Shown piece after piece: positions 1 to 23,512 of a stretch of 64,000 nt of DNA; the stretch's first letter is position 1; every line of letters begins with the position of its first letter. Below the pieces are notes generated by a model, which had not been told where the DNA came from, made no database searches, and was given only the letters and a program-made list of their open reading frames with translations. Origin of the DNA: Alphaproteobacteria bacterium SO-S41 (lineage in GTDB: Bacteria > Pseudomonadota > Alphaproteobacteria > Micropepsales > Micropepsaceae). The stretch lies in NCBI GenBank assembly GCA_019670725.1, contig AP024629.1:1426001-1490000 (forward strand), in the 5' to 3' direction. A program made the translations under genes and the position numbers.

Positions 1-2
1 TG

Positions 3-1535
3 GCCGCGCGACGAGTGCGCGGGCAAGGCAGCGAGCACAACAGCATGCTGGTCCATGTCACGAGATACCAGGCCGTGCAGAAGAGGGTTGTACTTCAGAT
101 ACAGGAGGCCCTGGATACGATTGCTAATTCCGTTCGCTACGGCGGAAAAGAGGGTATGCGCCCATTGTACGAGCAATGGAAAAGCGATTTTGAGCCCGTC
201 ACAAGCACGCTTGCGTTGCCAGATTGCGCGCCTGTTGCGTGGTCTGAGGTTCGCGAAGCGCTTCGAGCGACCATCAATTCGATCACGATCCGCGAGATAA
301 ATGGCAGCTCCGCAGATGTTCTCGACTATGACGCGAACAAGGGTCGCGGGCTCAATGTAATCGCGGTTGGTGGTGATAAGCTCGCGCGGGGACTAACTCT
401 TGAAGGACTGTCGATCACCTATTTTCTGCGCGGCTCCTCTATGTACGACACCCTTCTTCAGATGGGGCGATGGTTTGGATATCGGCACGGATATCTCGAC
501 CTTTGTAGGCTCTACACAAGTCAGGATCACATCGACTGGTATGGCCACATAGCGCAAGCCAATGACGAGCTTCGACGCGAGTTCGATCGTATGGAAGCTG
601 TTGGCGCTGATCCTATACAATTTGGATTGCGTGTCCGGAGCCATCCCAGCCTCACCGTCACATCGCGCGCAAAGATGAGGCACGGTACCGAGCTGAAAGT
701 CTCGTTCGCCGGTGATGTGTCGGAGACATCGGTGTTTTCAACTTCACCCCGAACACTCTCTCAGAACTTCTCGGCGGCAGGAAATTTCATTGACCGTCTC
801 CGCGGTTCCTCAAAGTACGCGCGAGATCCTGAGCAAGTGCGCTCACAAAGTCGAATTAGCAGGTGGGCCGGATCCCACCTTTGGCAAGACGTTGGCGCGT
901 CCGATGTTATCGACTTTCTCGACTCGTTCTCTACTCATGAGGATGCCGCGAGGGCGAATTCATCTGTCCTGGCAAAATATATCCGGCAGCAGCTGCTAAG
1001 GGGCGAGTTGACGAATTGGAACGTCCTGCTTGTCGGAGGCGACGGCGAAGAAGCGATTTCCGTAGGCGGAGTGTCTGTGAACGCTGTTATTAGGCAACCG
1101 AAGGGTGGTTGGCTGAGCGGATCCGACTATCCGAGAGTCATTAAACCTGCCGAGAAATTTGTCATTCGGCGTTTGCTAAGTCCACGTGATGAAGCCGTTG
1201 ACTTGGACGCAGCCGCATTTGACGCAGCGATGGCTGAGACCGTTGCCACGCCGCCCAAGCGCCAGCGAAAGACAGATGACCCTCCTGCCTTTCCCTCTGG
1301 AGTGTTTCTAAGAAAGCGGAGGAGCCCCACCCACGGCCTGCTGCTACTGTATCCACTTGCGCGACTGGCCCCGTTGAAGCGGCCAGACGGGAGCGAATTC
1401 AATCACTTGTTTCTGCCGGAAGAACCCAATCCGATCGGTCTTGGAATAAGCTTTCCAGCCTCGGAGAACGCCGCGTCGGTCACATACGTTGTAAACAGCA
1501 TCTACGACACGACCGATGATGATGGCGACGCATGA
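3..1535 (+). CDS. Z1-domain helicase-like protein, 3' part (truncated by window edge)
   Basis: The reading frame is open back to the window edge, so this is the C-terminal part of a larger protein; Z1 proteins are usually much longer. It contains the two most diagnostic stretches of the Z1 domain: VGGDKLARGLTLEGL (like superfamily II helicase motif V) and QMGRWFGYR (like motif VI). Z1 proteins are ATP-dependent helicase-like subunits found with a DNA methyltransferase, a MutL/MORC-type ATPase, a PD-(D/E)XK nuclease and an AIPR protein in restriction-type defence systems. The stop codon overlaps the next start as ATGA, and the next two genes are the expected nuclease and AIPR partners. I expect the methyltransferase and ATPase genes just left of the window. 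Confidence 0.85.
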   Translation, partial: AARRVRGQGSEHNSMLVHVTRYQAVQKRVVLQIQEALDTIANSVRYGGKEGMRPLYEQWKSDFEPVTSTLALPDCAPVAWSEVREALRATINSITIREINGSSADVLDYDANKGRGLNVIAVGGDKLARGLTLEGLSITYFLRGSSMYDTLLQMGRWFGYRHGYLDLCRLYTSQDHIDWYGHIAQANDELRREFDRMEAVGADPIQFGLRVRSHPSLTVTSRAKMRHGTELKVSFAGDVSETSVFSTSPRTLSQNFSAAGNFIDRLRGSSKYARDPEQVRSQSRISRWAGSHLWQDVGASDVIDFLDSFSTHEDAARANSSVLAKYIRQQLLRGELTNWNVLLVGGDGEEAISVGGVSVNAVIRQPKGGWLSGSDYPRVIKPAEKFVIRRLLSPRDEAVDLDAAAFDAAMAETVATPPKRQRKTDDPPAFPSGVFLRKRRSPTHGLLLLYPLARLAPLKRPDGSEFNHLFLPEEPNPIGLGISFPASENAASVTYVVNSIYDTTDDDGDA

Positions 1536-2527
1536 CTTTGCTAGCCCATACATGGGAACTACTTCAACTTGAGGCGCGCACCGAGGCGGGCTGGCATCTA
1601 CGCAGAATTCTACCGACATCTCCCTGTGAGATCTTCGCCGCTCTGCATCAGCCTGACGGTACGCCTGGCTTGGTGCTGGAGGTCAGTCCACTTTCGTTTG
1701 GATCATATCCAGAGATACCAGTCGCAGTTGGGTTCCGGCTCGTGTCCCAACTGATTGGCCACAGCCGGAACGGCCGTGTCCGTGTAATCTTGTCTTTAGC
1801 GGACCCCGCTTATTCGGCTGTGTTCTCGGTGCTCTGCATGGATTGCGCCGAATGCTTGGCGAACGAAATCGACGAGCGCAGCGCGTTAGCGCGCTTTGTA
1901 GGTCGGTTGCTAGTCTGGCAGGAATTTATGGAGCGTCGGGGCACCGGCGGCCTCCCAGAAAAGGCAGCTTTAGGTCTAATGGGCGAGCTCGTCGTCTTAG
2001 CCGATCTCATTGCACCAAAAGTAGGATGGTCACGTGCGGTACGCTCATGGTCTGGCCCTGATGGCGAGGTGAACGATTTTTGCCTCGATCGGCTTTTTCT
2101 TGAGGTCAAGGCGACAACACGGCAGGTAACAAAAGCCATCGAAATCTCGAACGCAGATCAGTTGGATCCATCTAGGGGAAATATCCTTCTGGCACACGCG
2201 TCCTTCCAGCCCACGGATCAAGGCGAGACTCTTCCGTCACTTGTCGACCGAATAAGGCAGCGTTTGGCCATAGAGGCATTGACCGAACTGCCAGTCTTCA
2301 CAGAGCGGTTACTGAAGGTCGGATACCTAGATGCTGACCGTGACTTATATTCGGATTGCTTCAGGCTTCGAAAGCTAGATCTTTATAATGTGTCTGGCAG
2401 CTTCCCGCACTTATCACGCAACGACCTTCGAGACGGAGTGCTTGAGTGCTCCTATAGCCTCTCACTTGATGCCTGTGAGTGTTGGCGCACGTCACCGGAC
2501 GACATTGTGGGACTGCGGGAATCTTAG
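1532..2527 (+). CDS. PD-(D/E)XK nuclease-like protein (DUF4420 family)
   Basis: 331 residues. The central part carries GLMGELVVLADLI, then an aspartate in GEVNDFCLD and LFLEVKATT, which fit the D...ExK metal-binding core of a PD-(D/E)XK nuclease; this family (DUF4420) is the usual nuclease partner of Z1 proteins. Inferred role: the DNA-cutting subunit of the Z1 system. The start at 1532 overlaps the Z1 stop by four bases (ATGA), and the AIPR gene begins one base after its stop, so the three genes are translated from one message. Codon use is A+T-richer than the core genes right of 23.5 kb, in line with horizontal transfer. Confidence 0.85.
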   Translation: MTLLAHTWELLQLEARTEAGWHLRRILPTSPCEIFAALHQPDGTPGLVLEVSPLSFGSYPEIPVAVGFRLVSQLIGHSRNGRVRVILSLADPAYSAVFSVLCMDCAECLANEIDERSALARFVGRLLVWQEFMERRGTGGLPEKAALGLMGELVVLADLIAPKVGWSRAVRSWSGPDGEVNDFCLDRLFLEVKATTRQVTKAIEISNADQLDPSRGNILLAHASFQPTDQGETLPSLVDRIRQRLAIEALTELPVFTERLLKVGYLDADRDLYSDCFRLRKLDLYNVSGSFPHLSRNDLRDGVLECSYSLSLDACECWRTSPDDIVGLRES

Positions 2528-2528
2528 A

Positions 2529-4586
2529 ATGGCGTCTGAGGATCAGGATCTCGCCAGCTTTGCGAAAGATCTTCAATCGGAGACGAGTGATCGAGCTCTC
2601 GGCGATCTCGACGGTGGCGAGTTTTCTGAGAACGCATTCGTCGAATTGGTTTCAGAGCATCTCGCAGAAATCGGGATGCTAGAAAATCCTGTTACATGCT
2701 TCTTCCAGAGACGGATGGGCGCGGCCTTCGTCAAGTTGAATGGCTACGCCATTCCTGACGATGGCGAGCGGATCGATTTGTTCGTTGCGATATACGGAGC
2801 CACTGGAGAGCCTTCTAGTATCTCAGCAACCGAGTTGAACCGTGCGGCGTCGCAGGCGAGCCGCGTACTGGTTGCGGCGAAGCGAGAGCTTCACCTAGAG
2901 ATGGAGCGCGCGAGCAGCCAGTTCGATATGATCGAGCGGATTTCGGATCTGCTGCAAGCGGGTGCAAAGCAAGCGAGAGTTTTTCTGTTTTCAAACGGGT
3001 TATGTAGCTTACGCAGCATAGAGGATATGCTGATAGGCGATGTCAGTGTCTCTTTCGAAATCTATGATCTCCAACGCTTGATGCGTACAATGAGTGCTGG
3101 GCAAACCCGCGAGATCATCGACTTTGATTTCGCTCAGATGGGCCTGCCGACCATCCCATGTGTAGCAATGCCCCCGGGATTAGAGCCGTACGAAACGTAT
3201 CTCGCGATTTTTTCGGGTACGACACTATATCAAATGTACGAGGAGTTTGGGTCACGCATCTTGGAGTACAATGTAAGGGCATTCCTGCAGGCAGCGGGGA
3301 AGGTCAATCGGGGAATAAGGGATACCATTCGCGATCAGCCCGGCCATTTCATGGCCTACAACAACGGCATCTCGATTACCGCTGACGAGGTCCGAACAAA
3401 GGCCGAAAGCTCTGGCCTGGTTATCACCGGTTTCAAAGGATTGCAGATCGTCAACGGCGGCCAGACAACGGCGTCCATTCACCGTGCCCGCAAGCGTGAT
3501 CGTCTGGATCTCTCCCAAATTCACGTTCCCGCTAAGGTCACTCGCCTTCGTCCGGAAATTGTCGAAGAGATGGTGCCGCGCATATCGCGGTTCGCAAATA
3601 CTCAGAACGTGGTCCAGGAGGCGGATTTTTCGTCTAATGAGCCATTCCATATCGCGATAGAGCGACTTTCTCGGGAGGTGTGGGCTCCGGGTGAACGGAC
3701 GAGGTGGTTCTACGAGCGGTCAAGAGGCCAGTATCAAACGGCGATGAGTAGGGAGGGTTCAACACCTGCTCGTCTCCGCGCCTTTCGAGAAAGGACGCCG
3801 CCTTTACAACGGTTTAGCAAGACAGATTTGGCGCGTTTCATAAACACGTGGAATCGCCTTCCGCACGTCGTCAGCGGAGGCATTCAAAGAAATTTCGTGG
3901 CGTACATGCGACGGCTTAGAGAAGCCAGAGGTGCGCGCTGGGAGCCAGATGCTACGTTCTTTCGAGAGACTATTTCGCTGGCAATCCTTTTCACAGCTGC
4001 ACAGCGTGTCGTGAGGCGAGAGAAGTTTCCAGCTTATCAGATAAACATCGCGATCTATTTGATGTCCTACCTTGCGCATCGGACTGGCGGACGCATGGCA
4101 TTGCCCATGCTGTGGGAGAAGCAAGCTGTCAGTCCCAGCCTCGAGGGATTGCTCGCCAGTTGGTCGCATGAAATCAACCAAGCCATTCTCGATAGTGCAC
4201 AGGGCCGTAACGTTACGGAGTGGTGTAAGAAGGAGGCATGTTGGCATGCGGTCCGGGAACTCGATCTGCCAATAGGTTCCCAAGCTCCGGACGAATGGGC
4301 TGCCGCCAGTGAAGCAGAAGAGCCGGTATCGTTCGAGGGCAGTGCAGTTGCCGACGACCACGCATCAGCGGCGTCGTGCATGAAGGTCTCTTCCGAGAGA
4401 TGGTTTGGCATCCACCTGTGGGGTATTCGTTCAGGGCATTTGGCTAGATGGCAGAGTGGGATCGCGCTCACGCTAAGCAGTTATGCCGCAGGGGGCTGGG
4501 AGAAGGCCCCGTCGATCAAGCAGGCGAAACACGGGGTGCGGATTTTGCAGATTGCGGATGAGCACGGATTTGACGGAGCGACCTAG
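2529..4586 (+). CDS. AIPR family abortive-infection protein
   Basis: 685 residues from ATG 2529, placed one base after the upstream stop; the frame is open further up but that would run through the nuclease gene. Residues around 300-330 hold YNNGISITAD and GLQIVNGGQTTASIH, the hallmark of the AIPR family, named for lactococcal abortive phage resistance proteins. Its biochemical activity is unknown to me. It is the third gene of the Z1 / nuclease / AIPR operon, an arrangement seen repeatedly in restriction-type defence loci with MutL/MORC ATPases. It ends only 13 bases from the end of the minus-strand gene at 4600, so the two defence-like operons converge with no visible terminator between them. 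Confidence 0.85.
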   Translation: MASEDQDLASFAKDLQSETSDRALGDLDGGEFSENAFVELVSEHLAEIGMLENPVTCFFQRRMGAAFVKLNGYAIPDDGERIDLFVAIYGATGEPSSISATELNRAASQASRVLVAAKRELHLEMERASSQFDMIERISDLLQAGAKQARVFLFSNGLCSLRSIEDMLIGDVSVSFEIYDLQRLMRTMSAGQTREIIDFDFAQMGLPTIPCVAMPPGLEPYETYLAIFSGTTLYQMYEEFGSRILEYNVRAFLQAAGKVNRGIRDTIRDQPGHFMAYNNGISITADEVRTKAESSGLVITGFKGLQIVNGGQTTASIHRARKRDRLDLSQIHVPAKVTRLRPEIVEEMVPRISRFANTQNVVQEADFSSNEPFHIAIERLSREVWAPGERTRWFYERSRGQYQTAMSREGSTPARLRAFRERTPPLQRFSKTDLARFINTWNRLPHVVSGGIQRNFVAYMRRLREARGARWEPDATFFRETISLAILFTAAQRVVRREKFPAYQINIAIYLMSYLAHRTGGRMALPMLWEKQAVSPSLEGLLASWSHEINQAILDSAQGRNVTEWCKKEACWHAVRELDLPIGSQAPDEWAAASEAEEPVSFEGSAVADDHASAASCMKVSSERWFGIHLWGIRSGHLARWQSGIALTLSSYAAGGWEKAPSIKQAKHGVRILQIADEHGFDGAT

Positions 4587-9488: not shown

Positions 9489-10217
9489 CTAGAACAACTC
9501 CTCCTGGCCGGGAGTAGGCTTCTTCGGCTTTGGCGTGGGTTTAGGCTTAGGCCTCGGCGGAGGAGGCGGTCGCTTCGACGGCGGCTTCACCTGCGGCTCC
9601 ATCGTCCAATTCCCACCATCCTCATAAGTCTGCAGAACGGCTTTGACCTCCTCGAGGGGCGCACGATCTTCGCCAAGCCAGATGCCATGGTGCTCGATCG
9701 GCAGGATGGCGGGCATGCGATCCGTGATCGTGGCGATCAAGGCATTCGGTTTCGTCGTGACCATCGCGAAGGTGAGAAGGCGCTCGTCGCCATGCTCCCA
9801 TTCCTCATAGATCACTGCAATCGCAAGCGGCTTGCCGTCTTTTGGCGTGATCACCCACTGCTTCGTCTTCGAACCGATCTCCTCGCCTTCGTTGAAGGTG
9901 CGTACAGGCATGATGCCGCGACGAAGCGCGAAGGATTCGCTCCACGTATCTTTCGTGTCGATCGTTTCTGCGCGGGCGTGCCAGAGGCGCTTGCCGGACA
10001 AATCGAGCGAGCGGCGTTCTGGAACGCCCCATTGCATGGGAACCATTTCACGATCGCCGGCCGCGTTGAGACGCATGATGTTCGACATACGCATAGGCGT
10101 CGACACAACTTCTTCGTCTCCGCCTTCACCACCGCCGCCGTTCTCCTCAGCATCGAACGCCTTGGAGAAGTCGACGACCTCTGACCACGAGCCCATCTGG
10201 GTGAACTTGCCGCACAT
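9489..10217 (-). CDS. SOS response-associated peptidase (SRAP/YedK/HMCES-like), divergent active site
   Basis: 242 residues starting MCGK, so Cys2 becomes the N-terminal nucleophile that cross-links to abasic sites in single-stranded DNA. E110 (FNEGEEIG) fits the conserved glutamate. Two other active-site positions differ: the usual NARSET reads HARAET (H80), and the usual HDRxP reads TDRMP (T165). Residues 212-237 form a Pro/Lys-rich tail, and the protein ends in QEELF, which fits the QxxLF sliding-clamp binding pattern; human HMCES also ends with a clamp (PCNA) motif. Last gene of the imuA-led operon, starting directly after the thpR stop. Likely SOS-induced. Confidence 0.85.
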   Translation of the reverse strand: MCGKFTQMGSWSEVVDFSKAFDAEENGGGGEGGDEEVVSTPMRMSNIMRLNAAGDREMVPMQWGVPERRSLDLSGKRLWHARAETIDTKDTWSESFALRRGIMPVRTFNEGEEIGSKTKQWVITPKDGKPLAIAVIYEEWEHGDERLLTFAMVTTKPNALIATITDRMPAILPIEHHGIWLGEDRAPLEEVKAVLQTYEDGGNWTMEPQVKPPSKRPPPPPRPKPKPTPKPKKPTPGQEELF

Positions 10218-10808
10218 TCAGGCAGAGCCCATTAGCGGCCACGTCTTCAGCGGAATATGCTTTGTGTCGCCGAGCATACTATGGACCAAAACCAGCTCAG
10301 TGACGCGCCAGCTTATCGGGTCCACGTCCCGCGGAGTCACCAAATGCCCGTCGTAGAGCATCGTCACGTGAGGCACGAACATCTTGTCCACGAGCTTGCC
10401 GAGGCCGGCCGATTTCATGGCGATGCCAAGCTTCTGCTGAAACGCCTTGAGGTCGTTGAGCGCCTGCCCACCCCTGAGAACGAAGGGGCGTCTTGACTGG
10501 CGGCCGGAGAAGCTGGCTGCACGATTGAATGTTACGTCGAACGGAGCGGCTGAAACGGCATCACCTGCCGCGATTGCCTTGGTGAGTATGTCCGGGGGCA
10601 CACCGATATAGTCGTCGATGTGATTGATCGTAGCGTGGAAGCGATCGTTCCTCTGCGGTCGGCCCTTCAGGCCGATCTGAGCTCTTAGCTGCTGGGCGAT
10701 CTCGCCGATCTGGGCGGCAACATCTTTCGGCGGGAAGACTGCATAGAAGAGCCGATCCGTCGGCTTTGCCGCGCCCTCATAGCCCGCGAATGTGAAGCGT
10801 CTCGGCAT
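10218..10808 (-). CDS. thpR: 2H phosphoesterase / 2'-5' RNA ligase-like protein
   Basis: 196 residues with the two HxT motifs of the 2H superfamily: H58-A-T60 (FHATINHI) and H147-V-T149 (PHVTMLYD). Family members include ThpR/LigT, which open 2',3'-cyclic phosphates or join 2'-5' RNA ends; the substrate here is unknown. The gene starts one base after the purN stop and its own stop abuts the SRAP start, so translation is coupled through all three. Placement in a LexA-controlled repair operon suggests a role in processing damaged nucleic acid ends or nucleotides. The symbol reflects the family and not a proven orthologue. Confidence 0.8.
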   Translation of the reverse strand: MPRRFTFAGYEGAAKPTDRLFYAVFPPKDVAAQIGEIAQQLRAQIGLKGRPQRNDRFHATINHIDDYIGVPPDILTKAIAAGDAVSAAPFDVTFNRAASFSGRQSRRPFVLRGGQALNDLKAFQQKLGIAMKSAGLGKLVDKMFVPHVTMLYDGHLVTPRDVDPISWRVTELVLVHSMLGDTKHIPLKTWPLMGSA

Positions 10809-10809
10809 G

Positions 10810-11415
10810 CTAGCCCGGCGAAGTCGCTTGGAAGACGGCCTCGCCGCGGGCGACTATCTTCAGCGCCTTGTGATAGAGCTTGTGCTCTTTCTCCAGAATG
10901 CGCGCGGACAGCGTTTCGGCGGTGTCGCCGGCGAGGACGGGCACGCGCATCTGGGCGATGATCGGACCCTCATCGACGCCGGGCGTCACCCAATGCACCG
11001 TGCAGCCGGCCTCCGAGACCCCCGCGTCCAGGGCCTGCTGTTGCGGCTTCAGGCCCTTGAAGGCGGGGAGGAGCGAGGGGTGGATGTTGGTCATCTTGCC
11101 CTGCCACTCGTGGATGAAGCGCTCGGTGAGGATGCGCATGAAGCCGGCGAGGGCGACGATGTCGGGGCTGATGGATTTCAGGAAGCCGTCGAGCACGCCG
11201 TCGAATTCTTCGCGGGACGCGAAATCCTTGTGATTGATGACGGTGCGGGCGAGGCCGGCGCCTTCGGCATAGATGAGGCCCGGCGCGTCCGGCCGATTGG
11301 TGATGACGTGGTCGATCACATAGGGGCAGTCGCTGTCGGCGGACGCGTCGATCAGCGCCTTGAGATTGGAGCCGGTGCCGGAGATCAGCACCGCCACCTT
11401 CTTGCGCTCGCTCAT
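10810..11415 (-). CDS. purN: Phosphoribosylglycinamide formyltransferase (GAR transformylase)
   Basis: 201 residues, the normal length. Transfers a formyl group from 10-formyl-tetrahydrofolate to GAR in purine synthesis. Visible landmarks are the phosphate loop SGTGSNL near residue 11, NIHPSLLPAFKG (catalytic Asn and His) and HWVTPGVDEGPII (catalytic Asp). purN usually lies beside purM; here it sits 16 bases after dnaE2 and one base before thpR in the SOS mutasome operon. It could be a second copy dedicated to nucleotide supply during translesion synthesis, or the chromosome's only copy trapped in this operon. The call is firm; the role in this place is inference. Confidence 0.92.
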   Translation of the reverse strand: MSERKKVAVLISGTGSNLKALIDASADSDCPYVIDHVITNRPDAPGLIYAEGAGLARTVINHKDFASREEFDGVLDGFLKSISPDIVALAGFMRILTERFIHEWQGKMTNIHPSLLPAFKGLKPQQQALDAGVSEAGCTVHWVTPGVDEGPIIAQMRVPVLAGDTAETLSARILEKEHKLYHKALKIVARGEAVFQATSPG

Positions 11416-11431
11416 GTACTCCAGCCCAACG

Positions 11432-14400
11432 TCATCGGAAGTCCCGCGTCTTCGGCTTTATCGTATCGATATGCAGATCGGGAATATAGATGTCGCGCTG
11501 CCTGAGACCCCGAGGTGGCAACGTACGGGGATCGTGCCCCGGCGTCCCGTTATGGAATTCATCGCCGCGTCCGTGAGGCAGCGGGAAGCTGCCCTCCCGG
11601 TCGCCAACGCTGGCCAAGGCGTCCGAGAGATTAGTCAGTTCGTGAGCGACGAGGTGGACCACTTCTCCCTCGCGCTGGATGCGGCCCCGCACGCCCAGCA
11701 TGCCGGCCGATAGAATGACTCGCCGCTGCTTCTCGAATAGCGAGGGCCAGATCACGAGATTGGCGATGCCGGACTCATCCTCGATGGTGATGAACATGAC
11801 GCCCTTCGCCGAGCCGGGGCGCTGTCGCACCAGGACCAAACCGGCGATTTTCACCCAGCGGCCGTCTTTGGTGCGCATCGTCTCGGCACAAGGGATCATG
11901 CCCTGCTTTTTAAGGTCGTCGCGCAGGAAGGTTACGGGATGCTCCCGCAGCGTAAGGCCGATATGGCCGTAGTCTTCGACGACTTCACCACCTCTCGTGC
12001 GGCGCTTGAGCGATACGGCGGGCTCGATGAGTTCCGGTACAAGGTCATCCTCGCGCGCCGCGGCTGCGGCAAACAGCGGTAGCGGCTCGTCGCGCAGACC
12101 CTTCAGTTGCCAGAGGGCATTTCGTCGGCTGAGGCGGAACGTCTCTTTGAAGGCATCAGCCTGCGCAATCTTGACGAGAGCTGCGGCAGGAACGCCGGCC
12201 CGGCGCCAGAGGTCATCGACCGAGGCGAATGGCCGTCCGCGCACGGCAAGGATCTTGGCCGCTTCGACGTTGGCGAGACCGCGGACCATTCTAAGGCCGA
12301 GCCGAACTGCCAATCGCTCCTCATCGCCGGTCTCTTCGAGAGTGCAGTCCCACCGCGACGCGTTGATGCAGATCGGACGCACCTCGACGCCATGTGCGCG
12401 CGCGTCGCCGACAATCTGGGCGGGTGCATAGAAGCCCATCGGCTGGGCGTTCAGCAGCGCGGCACAGAACGCGTCGGGGTGGTGGCATTTCAGCCAGGAG
12501 GAGGCATAGGCGATCAGCGCGAAGGACGCCGCATGACTTTCCGGGAAACCGTAGCTGCCGAACCCCTCGAGCTGGCTGAAGGTGCGCTCAGCAAATTCCC
12601 GCTGATAACCGCGCTCGACCATGCCGCCCACGAGCTTGTCCTTGAAGTGGCTGACGCCGCCCGTGAACTTGAAGGTCGCCATGGAGCGGCGGAGCTGGTC
12701 GGCCTCGCCCGGGGTAAAGCCGGCACATTCGATCGCCACGCGCATCGCTTGTTCCTGGAATAGCGGCACGCCAAGCGTCTTGCCGAGAACCTTCTCCAAC
12801 TCAGGACGCGGATAGACGACGGGCTCCAGGCCCTCACGGCGGCGCAGATAGGGGTGCACCATATCGCCCTGAATGGGGCCGGGCCGGACGATCGCGACCT
12901 CAATGACGAGGTCGTAGAATGTTCGAGGTTTTAACCGCGGCAACATCGACATTTGCGCCCGGCTTTCGATCTGGAAAACGCCGAGCGTGTCGGCCTTGCG
13001 GATCATCCGGTAGGTCCGGGGATCTTCGGCGGGAATAGTCGCGAGATCGTAAGTGAGGCCCTTATGGGCCGTGAGGAGATCCAGCCCCCGCTTCATGCAG
13101 GAGAGCATGCCGAGGGCGAGGACATCGACCTTCATGAAGTTGAGGTCCGAGATGTCATCCTTGTCCCATTCGATCACCTGACGATCCTTCATCGCCGCGG
13201 GTTCAATGGGAACGAGTTCGTCCAAGCGGTCACGGGTCAGAACAAAGCCGCCCGGATGCTGGCCGAGATGCCGTGGTGTCCCGATCAGCTGACGGGCGAG
13301 GATCAGCGCAAGCCTCAGACGGCGGTCGCCGAGGTTGAGGTTCAGATCCTCGGCATGCTTAGGCACGACGCCTTCCTCAGACCAGCCCCAGATCTGGGAT
13401 GACAACATCTTCGTCAGGTCTTCGGTAAGCCCCAGAGCCTTGCCGACATCGCGGAGCGCACCCTTCGCCCGATAGCGGGTCACCGTCGAGCAGAGAGCCG
13501 CGTGGTCGCGGCCGTAGGTGTCGTAAACCCACTGCATCACGGTCTCACGCCGCTCGTGTTCAAAGTCGACATCGATGTCCGGCGGCTCGCGGCGCTCCTC
13601 GCTCACGAAACGCTCGAAGAGGAGGTCGTTTCTGCCCGGATCAATGGACGTGATCCCGAGGACGAAGCAGACCGCGCTGTTGGCCGCAGAGCCGCGCCCC
13701 TGACAGAGAATGTTCTGGCTGCGCGCGAACCGAACGATCGCGTTCACAGTCAGGAAGTAGGGGGCGTATTCCAGCTTCTCGATCAGCGCGAGTTCGTGCT
13801 TCAGGGATTTGACGACGCTGTCAGGCACGCCTTCCTGATAGCGCTCCGCCGCACCCTCCCAGGTCAGCTTCTCCAGCGTCTGCTGTGATGTTCGACCCGG
13901 CTCCGTCACCTCGTCGGGGTACTGATAGGCGAGCTCCATCAGCGAGAACCGGCAGCGTTCGGCGATCACCAGCGTGTTCGCGATAGCCTGCGGGTAACGG
14001 GCGAAGAGACGCGCCATCTCCGCCGGCGGCTTCAGGTAGCGGTCGGCATGGCGCTCGCGGCGGAACCCAGCATCGTCGATTGTGCACTTGTTGCGGATGC
14101 AGGTCACGACATCCTGCAGAATGCGGCGCTCCGGGATATGGAAGAGGATGTCATTGGTCGCGACGACCGCGACCTTGGACTTGGCAGCGAGGTTGGAGAG
14201 CTTGTGCAGCCGAAGTGCGTCATTCGGCCGGCGGCGCAGCGTCAGAGCGAGATAGGCGCGGTCGCCAAACACTTTGGCGAGACGTTGGAGGCGGACGCCG
14301 CACATGTCGTCAGCCGCGTCCGGCACCAAGATCGCAATCAGACCTTCGCTCGCCGCCGCGAGATCATTCCAATCCAGTTTGCATTGCGCCTTGCCGCCGC

Positions 14401-14698
14401 GCTTCTTGCCGAGCGAGAGGAGACGGCAAAGCCGCGCATAGGCTGGGCGATCGGTAGGATAGACCAGAACGGACATGCCATCGGTCAGGTCCAACCGGCA
14501 GCCGACGATCAGCCGGATCCCCGTAACCTTCGAGGCGTCGAGAGCGCGAACGATGCCGGCGAGACTGTTGCGATCGACGATGCCGAGCGCCTCGATGCCG
14601 AGCTTGTGCGCGGTCTCGAAGAGCTCTGGACTTGAGCTCGCACCGCGCAGGAAGCTGAAGTGCGAGGTGCATTGCAGTTCGACATAGCGCTCGGTCAT
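11432..14698 (-). CDS. dnaE2: Error-prone DNA polymerase III alpha subunit DnaE2 (ImuC)
   Basis: 1088 residues, typical of DnaE2. An N-terminal PHP domain (begins with the conserved [16 protein letters not shown]) is followed by the C-family polymerase core; [14 protein letters not shown] and [11 protein letters not shown] hold the three catalytic aspartates. A helix-hairpin-helix region, an OB fold and the family tail [19 protein letters not shown] complete it. DnaE2 does the actual lesion bypass in the ImuA-ImuB-DnaE2 mutasome and causes damage-induced mutation. The start overlaps the imuB stop as ATGA. Expression should follow the LexA box upstream of imuA. Confidence 0.97.
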
Positions 14699-16218
14699 CC
14701 GAAGATCCCATGGATGAACCAGTCATGCGATCCCGTGGTAGCATCGACGCCATCGCCTTGACGGAAGACCCAGAAGCGCTCGCCAGCTTCGTCCTCGACC
14801 TGAAAATAGTCGCGCACGGCAATGAGCTCGGCGTCGCGCTTCCACCATTCGCCAAAGACCCGCTCGGGGCCGTCGGCGCGCTTCACACGGCGACGAATGC
14901 CACGCCAGGTGAAGCTGACCGGTGGATTATCGGGGAGCAGTGCGACCGTCTCGATGCGCTCAGGGTGCGGGAAAAGCCGCGATGGGCGTGGCCAATGATC
15001 CGGCCAGCCTTCCCCTGTCTGCGGTGCAGTCGGGGCAACTTTGCCAACTGAGCGTTCGGGAACGTCACTTTGCAGCGGCGCGAACCGATAGAGGCGATGC
15101 TCTCCCACGCGGTTGGAGAGTGTATCGATAAGCGCGGTGATATCGGCTTCCGGGGCGTCGATAAGGGAGGAAATCGACTGCTTGGCACCGAGCGGCTCAA
15201 CAACTGGCGCCGACAAGGTCATGATCTCGACGCCGAAGCCCGGATCGATCTTCTCGATCTTGTCGCAGAGCAGCCGCGTCAGGCGTTTGACGTCGCGCAC
15301 GGGCAGGGCGGTGCCGACGCGAATTGCCTCAATCCGGTTGTCCACGCGGTGGAACAGAAGGTCGAGGCGTTTGGCACCGAGCCCTTGCTCTTCGAGCTTG
15401 GCGCAAAGCGCGATCACCAGCTTGTTCGTATAGCGGGCCAGGGTCTCCGGCGCCCCGATCGGTTCGGCGAAGCCTTGACGGACCGTGATGAGATCAGGCG
15501 GTGCCACTGGATCGATCGGCTCGTCGAGTGCCCCCATGGCCCGGTCAAGCAGGCGGCCGAGCTCGGGCCCGAAGCGAAGGGTCAAAGGTGCGCGCGGCTT
15601 AGAGGCGAGATCGGCAATGGTTTCGAAGCCGAGGCGGCGCAGGCCATCAAGCGTTTCCGGGCCTAGGCGCAGCGCCACCATCGGGAGAGGCATGATGCGG
15701 TCCGCACTGGTGCCTGGCGGCACAATCATAAGCGGTTGATTGCTGTAACGCGCCAAAGCATGCGCCGCGCCCCAACTATCGGCGATCGCCGCACGCGCTA
15801 CGATGCCTGAACCCACCAGGCGATCGATCATGCCGGCAAGCATGGCGCTTTCACCGCCCTTGAGGTGCGCGGCGCCGGTCGCGTCGATCACGATCCCATC
15901 GGGCGGATCGGCAGCAACAATGGGCGCATAGCGCTGCAGCGCCCAAACGGCCAGGCGCTCCAAGGCATCGGCGTCGCCTGCTGGATCAGCCTCCTTGATG
16001 ACGAGACCGGGGACGAGGGCCTGCGCTTTCGTGGCGGGCATCCCGGGATGGAGTCCGAGTCCTGCTGCGGCTGTATCTGCAGCCAACACCACCCGCCGCC
16101 TGCCATCACGCCCGACTAGGACGATTGGGGTTTCAGGCGGTGGCGCGGTAGCTCCCATCGCCCGCCTGAGCCTGTCCGTAGGCCAGGTGGGGAGGTACAG
16201 CGAGACGACCCTGCGCAT
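14695..16218 (-). CDS. imuB: ImuB, catalytically inactive Y-family polymerase subunit of the mutasome
   Basis: 507 residues from ATG 16218, which has a GGAAG six bases upstream; the longer frame would need a TTG at 16236. The start [17 protein letters not shown] and the following fingers/little-finger order match ImuB, which lacks the catalytic acids of Pol IV/V and works as an adaptor joining ImuA, DnaE2 and the sliding clamp. KQSISSL (about residues 346-352) is in the place where ImuB proteins carry a clamp-binding motif, but it is a weak match. The gene overlaps the imuA 3' end by 86 bases, so the two are translationally linked. Confidence 0.93.
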
Positions 16219-16885
16219 CACACGCTTCCAACTCAAACTCCGCGCTTTCTCCGGCGCGGCATCGGATCAATTCAACAAACCAGCGCGCTCGTCCGACGCC
16301 AGGTACTGGCAAGGGCGCTGAGGGGAGGGCGCTGACGCGCCATCTGGTGACCGCGGCCGTCGGCTGGCCGAAGTCCGACGCTTCGCTCTGACGCCGCCAA
16401 CGGCGAATACAGAGCCCCATGGCACCGGAGCTTTCTGCGGCGAGCTGCAGTCGGCGCGATGCGGTCATGGAGAGGCGCGCGACCTCGGCGATGACCGCGC
16501 CCATGCCGTTATGGCGCAGCCCATCCTCGAAACAGGCAAGGACTGACTTCTCGTCGCCGGCTTCCACATAGGTGACGCGATCAGGACCTAACCCGGCTTG
16601 CTCCAGCGCTGGGGCGAAGAGATCGGGCCGAACCAGGCACCAGAGCACCGGCCCGCGCGTGCGGGCGGCAATGCCGGCCGTAAAGAGCGCGGCGGCAGCG
16701 CCATCGACCGCGCCGTTTCCGCCCCCGGCGATCTCATGCAAGGCACCGAGGGATAGGCCGTGGGTGGGGAGCTTCGCATCGATTGCACCGACGCCGAACG
16801 GCAGCACATCGATGGTCCGGCGTTCCGCCGTTTCCAGCTTACGCACCTTCTCGCGCAGAGCATCGATGGCGGGTGGTGACCGCAT
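16133..16885 (-). CDS. imuA: ImuA, RecA-like mutasome accessory protein
   Basis: 250 residues. The protein begins with a short helix and the FGVGAIDAKLPTHGLSLGAL stretch typical of ImuA, then a RecA-like alpha/beta core (VLWCLVRPDLFAPALEQAGL) and WRVSALPSAPLPVPGVGRAR near the end. ImuA binds RecA and ImuB and helps recruit the mutasome. It is the first gene of six: imuA-imuB-dnaE2-purN-thpR-SRAP, with overlaps or gaps of at most 16 bases. A perfect LexA box lies 38-52 bases upstream of the start codon. The 3' end overlaps imuB by 86 bases, which is more than usual. Confidence 0.93.
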   Translation of the reverse strand: MRSPPAIDALREKVRKLETAERRTIDVLPFGVGAIDAKLPTHGLSLGALHEIAGGGNGAVDGAAAALFTAGIAARTRGPVLWCLVRPDLFAPALEQAGLGPDRVTYVEAGDEKSVLACFEDGLRHNGMGAVIAEVARLSMTASRRLQLAAESSGAMGLCIRRWRRQSEASDFGQPTAAVTRWRVSALPSAPLPVPGVGRARWFVELIRCRAGESAEFELEACDAQGRLAVPPHLAYGQAQAGDGSYRATA

Positions 16886-16922
16886 TCGGACTATTGACCT
16901 TTGGCTGGGGCTGCGGTTCTAT

Positions 16923-16937
16923 GTTCCTACTTTGTTC
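16923..16937. promoter_or_regulatory. LexA (SOS) box, GTTC-N7-GTTC
   Basis: GTTCCTACTTTGTTC: two GTTC half-sites exactly seven bases apart, the alphaproteobacterial LexA site. A further GTTC stands at 16916-16919. The box is 38 bases from the imuA start on one side and 33 bases from the ATG of the plus-strand gene at 16970 on the other, so LexA could repress both directions. Confidence 0.9.
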
Positions 16938-16969: not shown

Positions 16970-17194
16970 ATGGTCACGATCCTCAACCTGAAAACCCCGC
17001 CAATTCTGCGGGATGAGCTGCGCGCGATCGGCGATCTCACCGACAACTACATTGCGGAAGTGCGACGCGAGATTGGCAATGTCTCGTGGGAGCGCATGGC
17101 GTGTGAGCTCGAAGAGAAACCAGATTCAGGCGAGGAGGGGCCAGAGGTGTCACTCGCCATCGCCCGCGAAATCCGCCGCCGACTAGCGGCTTAG
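16970..17194 (+). CDS. Small hypothetical protein, 74 aa
   Basis: 74 residues, charged and helical by eye (RDELRAIGDLTDNYIAEVRR), no membrane segment, no family I recognise. ATG 16970 is preceded by AAGGG eight bases upstream. It is divergent from imuA and shares with it a short intergenic region containing the LexA box, so it may be SOS-controlled. It leads a plus-strand series with the broken frame at 17220 and the methyltransferase-like gene at 17402. Confidence 0.6.
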   Translation: MVTILNLKTPPILRDELRAIGDLTDNYIAEVRREIGNVSWERMACELEEKPDSGEEGPEVSLAIAREIRRRLAA

Positions 17195-22043: not shown

Positions 22044-23297
22044 TTATGCCTTTTTGTCGGCCGCGATTCTTTGGCCATCGATGCGGATGATTTCCGCGGT
22101 TTTTCCGGCCATAGCTGCGGATATCCGGCCGGCAGTGGTGTCGGCCGTCGCTCTGAGGGGATCAACCGCGCGTTCAACGTAGCGTCCGGTCATCGCCATC
22201 GTCCTGTGACCCAGCAGATCTCGGACGACGAAGGCGTTCGCGCCAGTTTGGGCAGTGTAGGTGCCGAGCGTATGCCTCAGGTCATGCGGCCGAGCATTCT
22301 GGATTCCTGTGATTTCTCGAACCCGCGCCCAGAGCTTTCGGAATGCCGCCTCACTTTCCGGCGCATTGCTGCCTGCCCTGCGGAAAACAAAGTCGCTGTC
22401 CTTCGGCAGGGAGGACAGCAACACGGCGGCTGGGGCACCAAGCGGAATGGAGCGGGAGCCTGCCTTAGCCTCGGAAAGGTGCAATGTCGGGCCGCTGAGA
22501 TCGACCTCTTTCCACCTCAAGGTCCTTGCTTCGGTCAATCGCATGCCGGTGAGCGCCAAGAAACGAAGCAGAGCGATGGCGCTCTCCGAAACGGGATGTT
22601 CCTCACTGAGCCTCGCCTCCTCGATCCCGGAAATCGCGTTGCCGATCGAGGCGAGTTCTGGCTCGCCGAAGAAGCGCTCACGCTTCTTTTCGGGAAAGCG
22701 CTTAATGCCGACGCATGGATTGTCAGGCCTCAGTTCCCAATCGCCGGATGCCAATGACATCATCTTTTGCAAATACGCGAGACAGCGGTTCGCGCCATAA
22801 GGCGTCGCGCTCATCGAGGAATGCCACTCCTTGATCCGGGCCCGCGAAAGCTCGCCAATTCGACAGGAACCGAACTCTGGTTTGATGCGGTTCTCGATGA
22901 CCACTTTGATCTCGCGAGCCGTGGATGCCCGATTGTGCGTCTTCACGTGCTCGGCCAAATATCGGTCGCAGACGGCAGAGATTGTGGGCGCCGCCCTTTT
23001 TCCGTCCCGATCGGCCGCCTTGTCCGCCTGCGGGTCTTTTCCGGCAGCGATCTGGCCTCGCAGAGACTGGGCCTTGCTGCGGGCATTCTCTGGCGTAAGC
23101 GACTCTCCATCTGGCGTCCGTTCGCCGTGCTCTCCAATCGTGAATATCCGTTGTTTTCCGAGCGAGATGTATTTGAGGCCGTAGACTTTTCGGTTTGCGT
23201 ACGCGCGGACCATGAAACCGCGGATGCTGCTGTCGAACAGCTGATCGCCTGGCTGGAGCGCGTCTACTGCGCGCTTGGTTATGCGTCCGACGGCCAT
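22044..23297 (-). CDS. Tyrosine site-specific recombinase (integrase)
   Basis: 417 residues from ATG 23297 (MAVGRITKRAVDALQPGDQL); the frame extends 10 codons more but this start matches the family. It has an N-terminal arm-binding domain (DUF4102 type), a core-binding SAM-like domain near 100-190, and the catalytic domain with the Arg in LTGMRLTEARTL, HDLRHTLGTYTA, LLGHRTMAMTGRYVE, giving R...HxxR...H...Y. It catalyses integration and excision of the island. Its 5' end is about 155 bases from the tRNA-Leu fragment, the likely attachment site. Confidence 0.95.
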   Translation of the reverse strand: MAVGRITKRAVDALQPGDQLFDSSIRGFMVRAYANRKVYGLKYISLGKQRIFTIGEHGERTPDGESLTPENARSKAQSLRGQIAAGKDPQADKAADRDGKRAAPTISAVCDRYLAEHVKTHNRASTAREIKVVIENRIKPEFGSCRIGELSRARIKEWHSSMSATPYGANRCLAYLQKMMSLASGDWELRPDNPCVGIKRFPEKKRERFFGEPELASIGNAISGIEEARLSEEHPVSESAIALLRFLALTGMRLTEARTLRWKEVDLSGPTLHLSEAKAGSRSIPLGAPAAVLLSSLPKDSDFVFRRAGSNAPESEAAFRKLWARVREITGIQNARPHDLRHTLGTYTAQTGANAFVVRDLLGHRTMAMTGRYVERAVDPLRATADTTAGRISAAMAGKTAEIIRIDGQRIAADKKA

Positions 23298-23453
23298 GGG
23301 CGGTGCTCCTATCGCCGCTAGATACACTGTGGATACGCCGCGGAGAAGGGTTTCGAGCGGCGAGGTGCATCACAATTCGTGAAATTATCTTTACAAAACA
23401 ATGCCTTAGAGATCTCGGCGCGGTTCTGTGCGGTTCTGTTCGCTTCAGCGAAA

Positions 23454-23512
23454 CAGACTTAAAATCTGCTGTCCGTAAGGGCGTGCCGGTTCGAGTCCGG
23501 CAGGGGTCACCA
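23454..23512 (+). other. Attachment site: 3' fragment of a tRNA-Leu(UAA) gene
   Basis: The sequence folds as a tRNA 3' half: anticodon arm CAGA-CTTAAAA-TCTG (anticodon TAA), a long variable arm as in tRNA-Leu, T-arm GCCGG-TTCGAGT-CCGGC, acceptor strand and CCA. The region upstream does not supply an acceptor or D arm. This is what is left at one end when an element integrates into a tRNA 3' end. The neighbouring integrase supports this. Confidence 0.8.

Follow-up and report, generated by a model that had tools for sequence, protein, structure and literature searches.

A putative LexA-controlled mutasome operon on a tRNA-Leu island, with second copies of host purN and 2H phosphoesterase genes in its tail

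The closest described systems are the LexA-controlled ImuA-ImuB-DnaE2 cassette (PMC3765255; Galhardo 2005, cited there), the mobile imuABC cassettes found on symbiotic plasmids (PMC4151985), and the SRAP genes that stand beside imuA, imuB and dnaE2, an association that has already been published (PMC3765255). The locus described here lies in a 64,000-nucleotide (nt) stretch of the Alphaproteobacteria bacterium SO-S41 genome, a single contig of 4.44 Mb with completeness 100. The whole stretch, G000:C1:1426001-1490000, is called the window, and positions given without a contig prefix are those of the window. Six co-directional open reading frames (ORFs) on its minus strand form the run imuA-imuB-dnaE2-purN-2H phosphoesterase-SRAP. 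This run has the gene order, the overlaps and the LexA-type box before imuA of the known cassette, but it carries three extra 3' genes, two of them apparently copied from the host purM-purN-2H locus. Like the plasmid-borne cassettes it appears to have moved horizontally, is predicted to be LexA-controlled and resides in a genome with its own mutasome set, but its carrier is a tRNA-integrated island that also bears a defence system, and it has added cargo. Its SRAP gene adjoins the mutasome as known SRAP genes do, except that it comes last, behind purN and 2H at the 3' end, and encodes an active-site variant. The box and the genes are as follows.

16923..16937, minus strand: LexA-type direct repeat GAAC-N7-GAAC upstream of imuA (pattern scan and related loci)
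16133..16885, minus strand: imuA (homology to imuA in related loci; NCBIfam ImuA_translesion below cut-off)
14695..16218, minus strand: imuB (Pfam IMS 28.3 bits, cut-off 23.2; homologous imuB behind imuA in related loci)
11432..14698, minus strand: dnaE2, error-prone polymerase (NCBIfam PRK05672 1400.6 bits, cut-off 939; Pfam)
10810..11415, minus strand: purN, second copy, intact (TIGR00639 220.5 bits, cut-off 150.1; Pfam Formyl_trans_N)
10218..10808, minus strand: 2H phosphoesterase (Pfam LigT_PEase 46.6 bits, cut-off 23.3)
9489..10217, minus strand: variant SRAP (Pfam SRAP 109.9 bits, cut-off 27.1; YedK alignment)

These coordinates agree with an original prediction, made from the window alone, of six genes on one strand with overlaps or gaps of at most 16 nt, and the six-gene operon is confirmed as a gene arrangement. 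imuA and imuB overlap by 86 nt if imuB begins at ATG 16218, which is most likely its true start (the longest ORF, 14695-16236, begins at TTG 16236). imuB and dnaE2 overlap by 4 nt, dnaE2 and purN are separated by 16 nt and purN and 2H by 1 nt, and no gap exists between 2H and SRAP. All six genes would be cotranscribed.

The host chromosome holds a purM-purN-2H locus near 2814 kb (host purN at G000:C1:2814419), and the purN-2H pair of the operon is a second copy of part of it. Island and host purN are identical at 549 of 586 nt (94% in DNA, 96% in protein), and the two 2H genes at 433 of 576 aligned columns (75% in DNA, 76% in protein). PurN proteins from the three congeners where purN was found are only 63-65% identical to island PurN, against 96% for the host copy; comparison of PurN with relatives used 10 of 12, with L105 and L106 left out after being missed by the motif search. 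The next relative of the island 2H protein is 44% identical among 96 genomes of the order and 46% identical among 385 genomes of the class. In relatives' purN loci (L097-L115, with 1.5-kb flanks), purM adjoins purN in 19 of 19 and ndk lies on the far side in 15, while this 2H gene stands beside purN in none. The purN-2H adjacency therefore appears to be lineage-specific, common to this chromosome and its island. The host 2H gene sits between purN and ndk (G000:C1:2814419-2815750), and probably also came late to this place, because all 19 relatives' loci lack it.

The two captured genes differ in age and composition. Synonymous divergence between island and host is 0.23 for purN and 1.03 for 2H (Fisher p = 2.8e-10, computed from rounded synonymous counts). 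GC content at third codon positions is 0.90 in island purN and 0.91 in host purN, compared with 0.735 in island 2H and 0.918 in host 2H; the other four operon genes range from 0.72 to 0.78. Island purN is thus host-like in composition and island 2H is island-like. Both genes are apparently constrained: the ratio of nonsynonymous to synonymous divergence between island and host is about 0.11 in purN and 0.17 in 2H. Island PurN keeps the GTGSN, NIHPSLLP, GCTVH and VDEGP motifs, which we take to hold the catalytic residues of the enzyme, and it passes the NCBIfam equivalog cut-off (220.5 against 150.1 bits). All differences between the two PurN proteins fall outside the motifs checked. Because the host locus still includes an intact purN next to purM, the island gene is probably not required for growth.

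Possible traces of the source locus can be discerned at the seams. Of the 10 nt that precede island purN, nine agree with the end of host purM after a 2-nt gap, and the hexamer TGCCGA occurs directly behind host purN as well as at the start of host 2H (both comparisons by eye). This repeat on both sides of the spacer would explain the loss of the spacer from the island copy. On this comparative evidence, purN and 2H are most likely intact captured cargo, and the arrangement resembles a capture specific to this lineage, by which a spare purN came to lie behind an SOS promoter, rather than a conserved package.

The single perfect LexA box that had been proposed to head the operon also stands. 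The repeat, 37 nt from the imuA ATG, is the only perfect GAAC-N7-GAAC in the window, where 1.87 are expected by chance, so that the bare pattern is not rarer than chance. It counts as meaningful because its position upstream of imuA is conserved, not because the pattern matches. In a comparison with the best 80 of at least 590 dnaE2 stretches from GTDB genomes, the repeat occurs within 150 nt upstream of imuA in 72 of the 73 loci that have imuA, against 158 of 16000 random 150-nt stretches from the same loci. The sole exception, L050, has only 20 nt preceding imuA. Host lexA is also preceded by GAAC-N7-GAAC, beginning 59 nt ahead of its start codon, and the beta/gamma-proteobacterial box CTGT-N8-ACAG is absent from the window. 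Judged by pattern and conserved position, the repeat is an alphaproteobacterial LexA-type box, and LexA control is predicted. The 10 kb read at the native purM-purN-2H locus contain no perfect GAAC-N7-GAAC, and capture would therefore have created the SOS link. Between 9000 and 17100, a promoter consensus scan gives one promoter-like site (1.5 expected), within imuB; minus-strand terminator-like sites at 16259 and 13267 are no more numerous than in shuffles.

A divergent ORF of 74 amino acids (16970-17194, plus strand) starts 32 nt beyond the box, on the opposite side from imuA. It has no Pfam match and no PADLOC match, and it may share SOS control.

imuA, imuB and dnaE2 are adjacent on the same strand, as in other mutasome operons. 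Pfam families were assigned to five of the six operon proteins, and ImuA was recognised by homology. ImuA has no Pfam match and reaches 64 bits with the NCBIfam ImuA model (E 1.6e-17; cut-off 150), and it matches imuA in 73 of the 80 related loci; its assignment is made by homology, not by curated cut-off. DnaE2 contains five DNA Pol III alpha-type domains (Pfam). ImuA, ImuB and DnaE2 most likely carry out SOS mutagenesis. The host has its own imuA-imuB-dnaE2 set, which is only 43, 42 and 53% identical, respectively, to the island set, while island dnaE2 reaches 78% identity with Roseicella, Rhizobium and Mesorhizobium genes among the GTDB dnaE2 matches listed. The island mutasome is therefore foreign.

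The operon is carried, as originally proposed, by an island, both ends of which were located. This 28.5-kb (approximate length) tRNA-Leu island is confirmed: a 59-nt repeat of the tRNA-Leu 3' end occurs in the tRNA gene itself (G000:C1:1420951-1421009) and again at window 23454-23512, the integrase gene begins 126 nt away from the right-hand repeat, and GC content is mostly below that of the flanks. Thus, the element has an integrase beside its attachment site and the tRNA 3' end at both ends, as expected of a tRNA-integrated island. Its other features in the window are as follows.

23454..23512, no strand: attR, 59-nt copy of the tRNA-Leu 3' end (repeat search)
22044..23327, minus strand: tyrosine integrase (Pfam Phage_integrase 78.7 bits, with arm-binding and SAM-like domains)
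15..4586, plus strand: Mza defence genes MzaC (part, the ORF being cut by the window edge), MzaD and MzaE (PADLOC)

MzaB lies just left of the window, and MzaB to MzaE follow a gene resembling cytosine methyltransferases at the island's left end (window 1-4586, L191 13621-16647).

The best explanation, and a rather likely one from these comparisons, is that a mobile LexA-controlled ImuA-ImuB-DnaE2 operon on the tRNA-Leu island gained cargo at its 3' end from the host purM-purN-2H locus. We infer the activities of the operon proteins and the order of events as follows. On DNA damage, LexA would leave the single box and the six genes would be transcribed into one RNA. ImuA, ImuB and DnaE2 would perform error-prone bypass, with the binding or cross-linking of abasic DNA falling to the variant SRAP. 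A purN-2H segment of the host lineage would have entered behind dnaE2, apparently with a ribosome-binding stretch from the end of purM. With loss of the 159-nt spacer, a second PurN and a second 2H protein would now be encoded behind the SOS promoter. The 2H copy would be old and long resident, with its island composition, and the purN copy would be recent, or else the chromosomal gene would have replaced its sequence not long ago by gene conversion. Most simply, the pair would have been captured together with the purM-end stretch, lost its spacer and resided long on the island before purN was overwritten recently. Neither purN nor 2H needs a special role in bypass to explain its presence. Such a history would mean that a mobile mutagenesis operon can grow, and that host metabolic genes copied into its tail come at once behind an SOS promoter.

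Several points weigh against this explanation. Capture as a pair requires a later conversion of purN, and the order of events rests on one genome, since the searches made gave no other genome with this cassette. Constrained purN and 2H genes in one tight run also fit selection for the whole set. The 8 kb read at the host's own imu operon contain no perfect box. Finally, the promoter scan gives no site near purN and none upstream of imuA, with a site number no higher than in shuffles, and is silent on a separate purN promoter.

Two independent captures are a possible, if somewhat unlikely, alternative. A dnaE2-2H-SRAP arrangement would have arisen first, and purN would have been inserted later between dnaE2 and 2H, a sequence of events that suits the different ages and compositions of the two genes. 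However, purN must then have landed by chance upstream of the homologue of its host neighbour, in an adjacency seen only in this genome, and the purM-end matches and TGCCGA microhomology fit capture of the pair.

The original prediction saw in the operon an integrated damage-tolerance package. In such a package PurN would feed purine nucleotides to DnaE2 synthesis, the 2H protein would clean ends, SRAP would shield abasic sites, and the set would be selected together. This reading is improbable, and the comparative evidence leans against it. A survey of relatives found the six-gene order in none of the 80 nearest mutasome loci, of which 76 extend 1 kb or more beyond dnaE2 and 71 extend 2.5 kb or more; no operon among them contains purN and no locus contains this 2H gene. 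The nearest approach is a 29% purN match in L066, about 5 kb away and on the opposite strand. The 2H hidden Markov model (HMM) that is silent in these loci does detect L142, although L142 is among the sequences from which it was built. Nor was the order found by way of the 2H gene in 96 genomes of the order (E up to 1e-20) or 385 of the class (E up to 1e-34), or among the plasmid matches listed (40 of 263, 9 of 9 and 40 of 68 records, with neighbours inspected for H41 only). Viral contigs gave two weak SRAP matches without other operon genes, and a further search gave no match. The GTDB dnaE2, plasmid and viral searches may leave out the genome of the window and very near ones. The package reading is further weakened by the recent date and host composition of purN, which suggest accident over long service, and by the identity of the purN-2H pair as a second copy of the host locus.

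The label of end-processing enzyme and the name thpR, given earlier to the 2H gene, are not supported. Its product has a LigT domain and an HxTx motif at each of residues 58 (HATI) and 147 (HVTM), which place it in the 2H phosphoesterase superfamily, but it scores 51.5 bits with TIGR02258 (RNA 2',3'-cyclic phosphodiesterase, ThpR), for which the cut-off is 65.7.

Some observations favour a selected package. The last three genes are tightly coupled, purN and 2H look constrained, and in one other genome (G050) a variant SRAP gene is followed by a 2H gene 18 nt on, although 2H adjoins only one of the 10 other variant SRAPs. purN has also been studied in Staphylococcus aureus antibiotic tolerance (PMC9774800). 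In addition, repair genes join mutasome tails elsewhere. Behind dnaE2 are found DinB (L012), SRAP (L028), a 2OG-Fe(II) oxygenase (L041) and an ATP-dependent DNA ligase (L050), the four listed tail ORFs that Pfam identified in a survey of the 78 loci readable past dnaE2 (L038 and L071 were not). A grown tail is therefore not unusual, and purN is the odd one. Among the open PMC papers listed (15 of 113), none places purN in an SOS operon by its title or displayed abstract; for a mutasome together with purN or an RNA ligase, the same library gave a single match, PMC2669436. Should purN matter, the operon would newly link an error-prone polymerase to purine supply induced by damage, though this is speculation.

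SRAP genes are common near mutasomes. An SRAP match occurs somewhere in 35 of the 80 stretches (HMM), mostly on the opposite strand upstream of imuA, in agreement with the published association (PMC3765255); the figure is an upper one, counting matches with E up to 1e-5 on both strands and up to 10 kb to each side. Only in L028, L006 and L056 does a co-directional SRAP gene follow dnaE2 within 500 nt.

The window SRAP departs from these relatives in its active site. Aligned with YedK, it keeps Cys2 and Glu105, which are common to YedK/HMCES (PMC9436759), but has His in place of Asn75 and Thr in place of His160. YedK and four other SRAPs of the class read C, N, E, H at the four places (75, 105 and 160 following Cys2), and the window protein reads C, H, E, T. 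It was earlier called an abasic-site shield, and this stands as far as the SRAP domain with Cys2, which place it in the family, but the canonical YedK/HMCES set (Asn75, Glu105, His160, Cys2) is incomplete and the His160 of the canonical shield is missing. Cys2, His75 and Glu105 are common to 10 relatives from nine other genomes; seven of them have Thr at position 160, and the other three have Asn, Asp and Ala (an insertion makes this position uncertain in L154 and L155). The relatives fall in a single clade with the window SRAP and are therefore counted as one event. No mutasome genes occur in the 5.7-9.0 kb read around each of the 10. The 31 SRAPs near related mutasomes (those of 44 HMM matches with E < 1e-20) read C-N-E-H in 26 cases and other patterns in five, never that of the window. 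The SRAP clade with a changed active site and the 2H protein below the ThpR cut-off are, by these comparisons, what is new here.

Substitutions in YedK indicate what the changes might do. H160A and H160Q slow cross-linking to internal sites by a factor of about 10 or more and affect 3'-phospho-alpha,beta-unsaturated aldehyde (3'-PUA) ends less; N75A changes cross-linking to internal sites very little, yet leaves that of 3'-PUA incomplete at 20 min (PMC9436759). The window SRAP most likely handles abasic DNA, and because His160 is missing, it probably cross-links internal sites more slowly than YedK. For cleaved ends, the changes at Asn75 and His160 would pull in opposite ways. The clade thus offers a biochemical prediction, that its cross-linking of internal abasic sites is weaker than that of YedK.

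It is doubtful that the clade swapped catalytic His160 for a His at position 75, near Cys2, and so altered its preference among abasic products, forming with 2H and error-prone synthesis a distinct SOS abasic pathway on the island, with purN raised for purine supply. A switch toward 3'-PUA ends is made less likely by N75A itself, which weakens 3'-PUA cross-linking in YedK (PMC9436759).

An assembly error or a chance run of ORFs can practically be dismissed, for although about two bare box matches are expected per window, the genome is a single contig with completeness 100, the two purN copies are told apart by 37 mismatches in 586 nt and by their flanks, and homologues exist for all six genes.

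Other SRAP arrangements were encountered. In G050, the variant SRAP gene and the 2H gene that follows it (L187 3736-4989, the same genes as L142 1495-2820) have no mutasome in the 5.75 kb read. Three mutasomes have paired SRAP genes nearby (L028 13275-14614, L006 13543-14732 and L075 2617-3811), one member of which reads C-N-E-H while the other is without the key residues. The host of the island also encodes another SRAP, a divergent one reading C, D, E, H (G000:C1:1250689-1251601; L129, L188), whose gene lies head to head with the gene for a small LexA-like DNA-binding protein.

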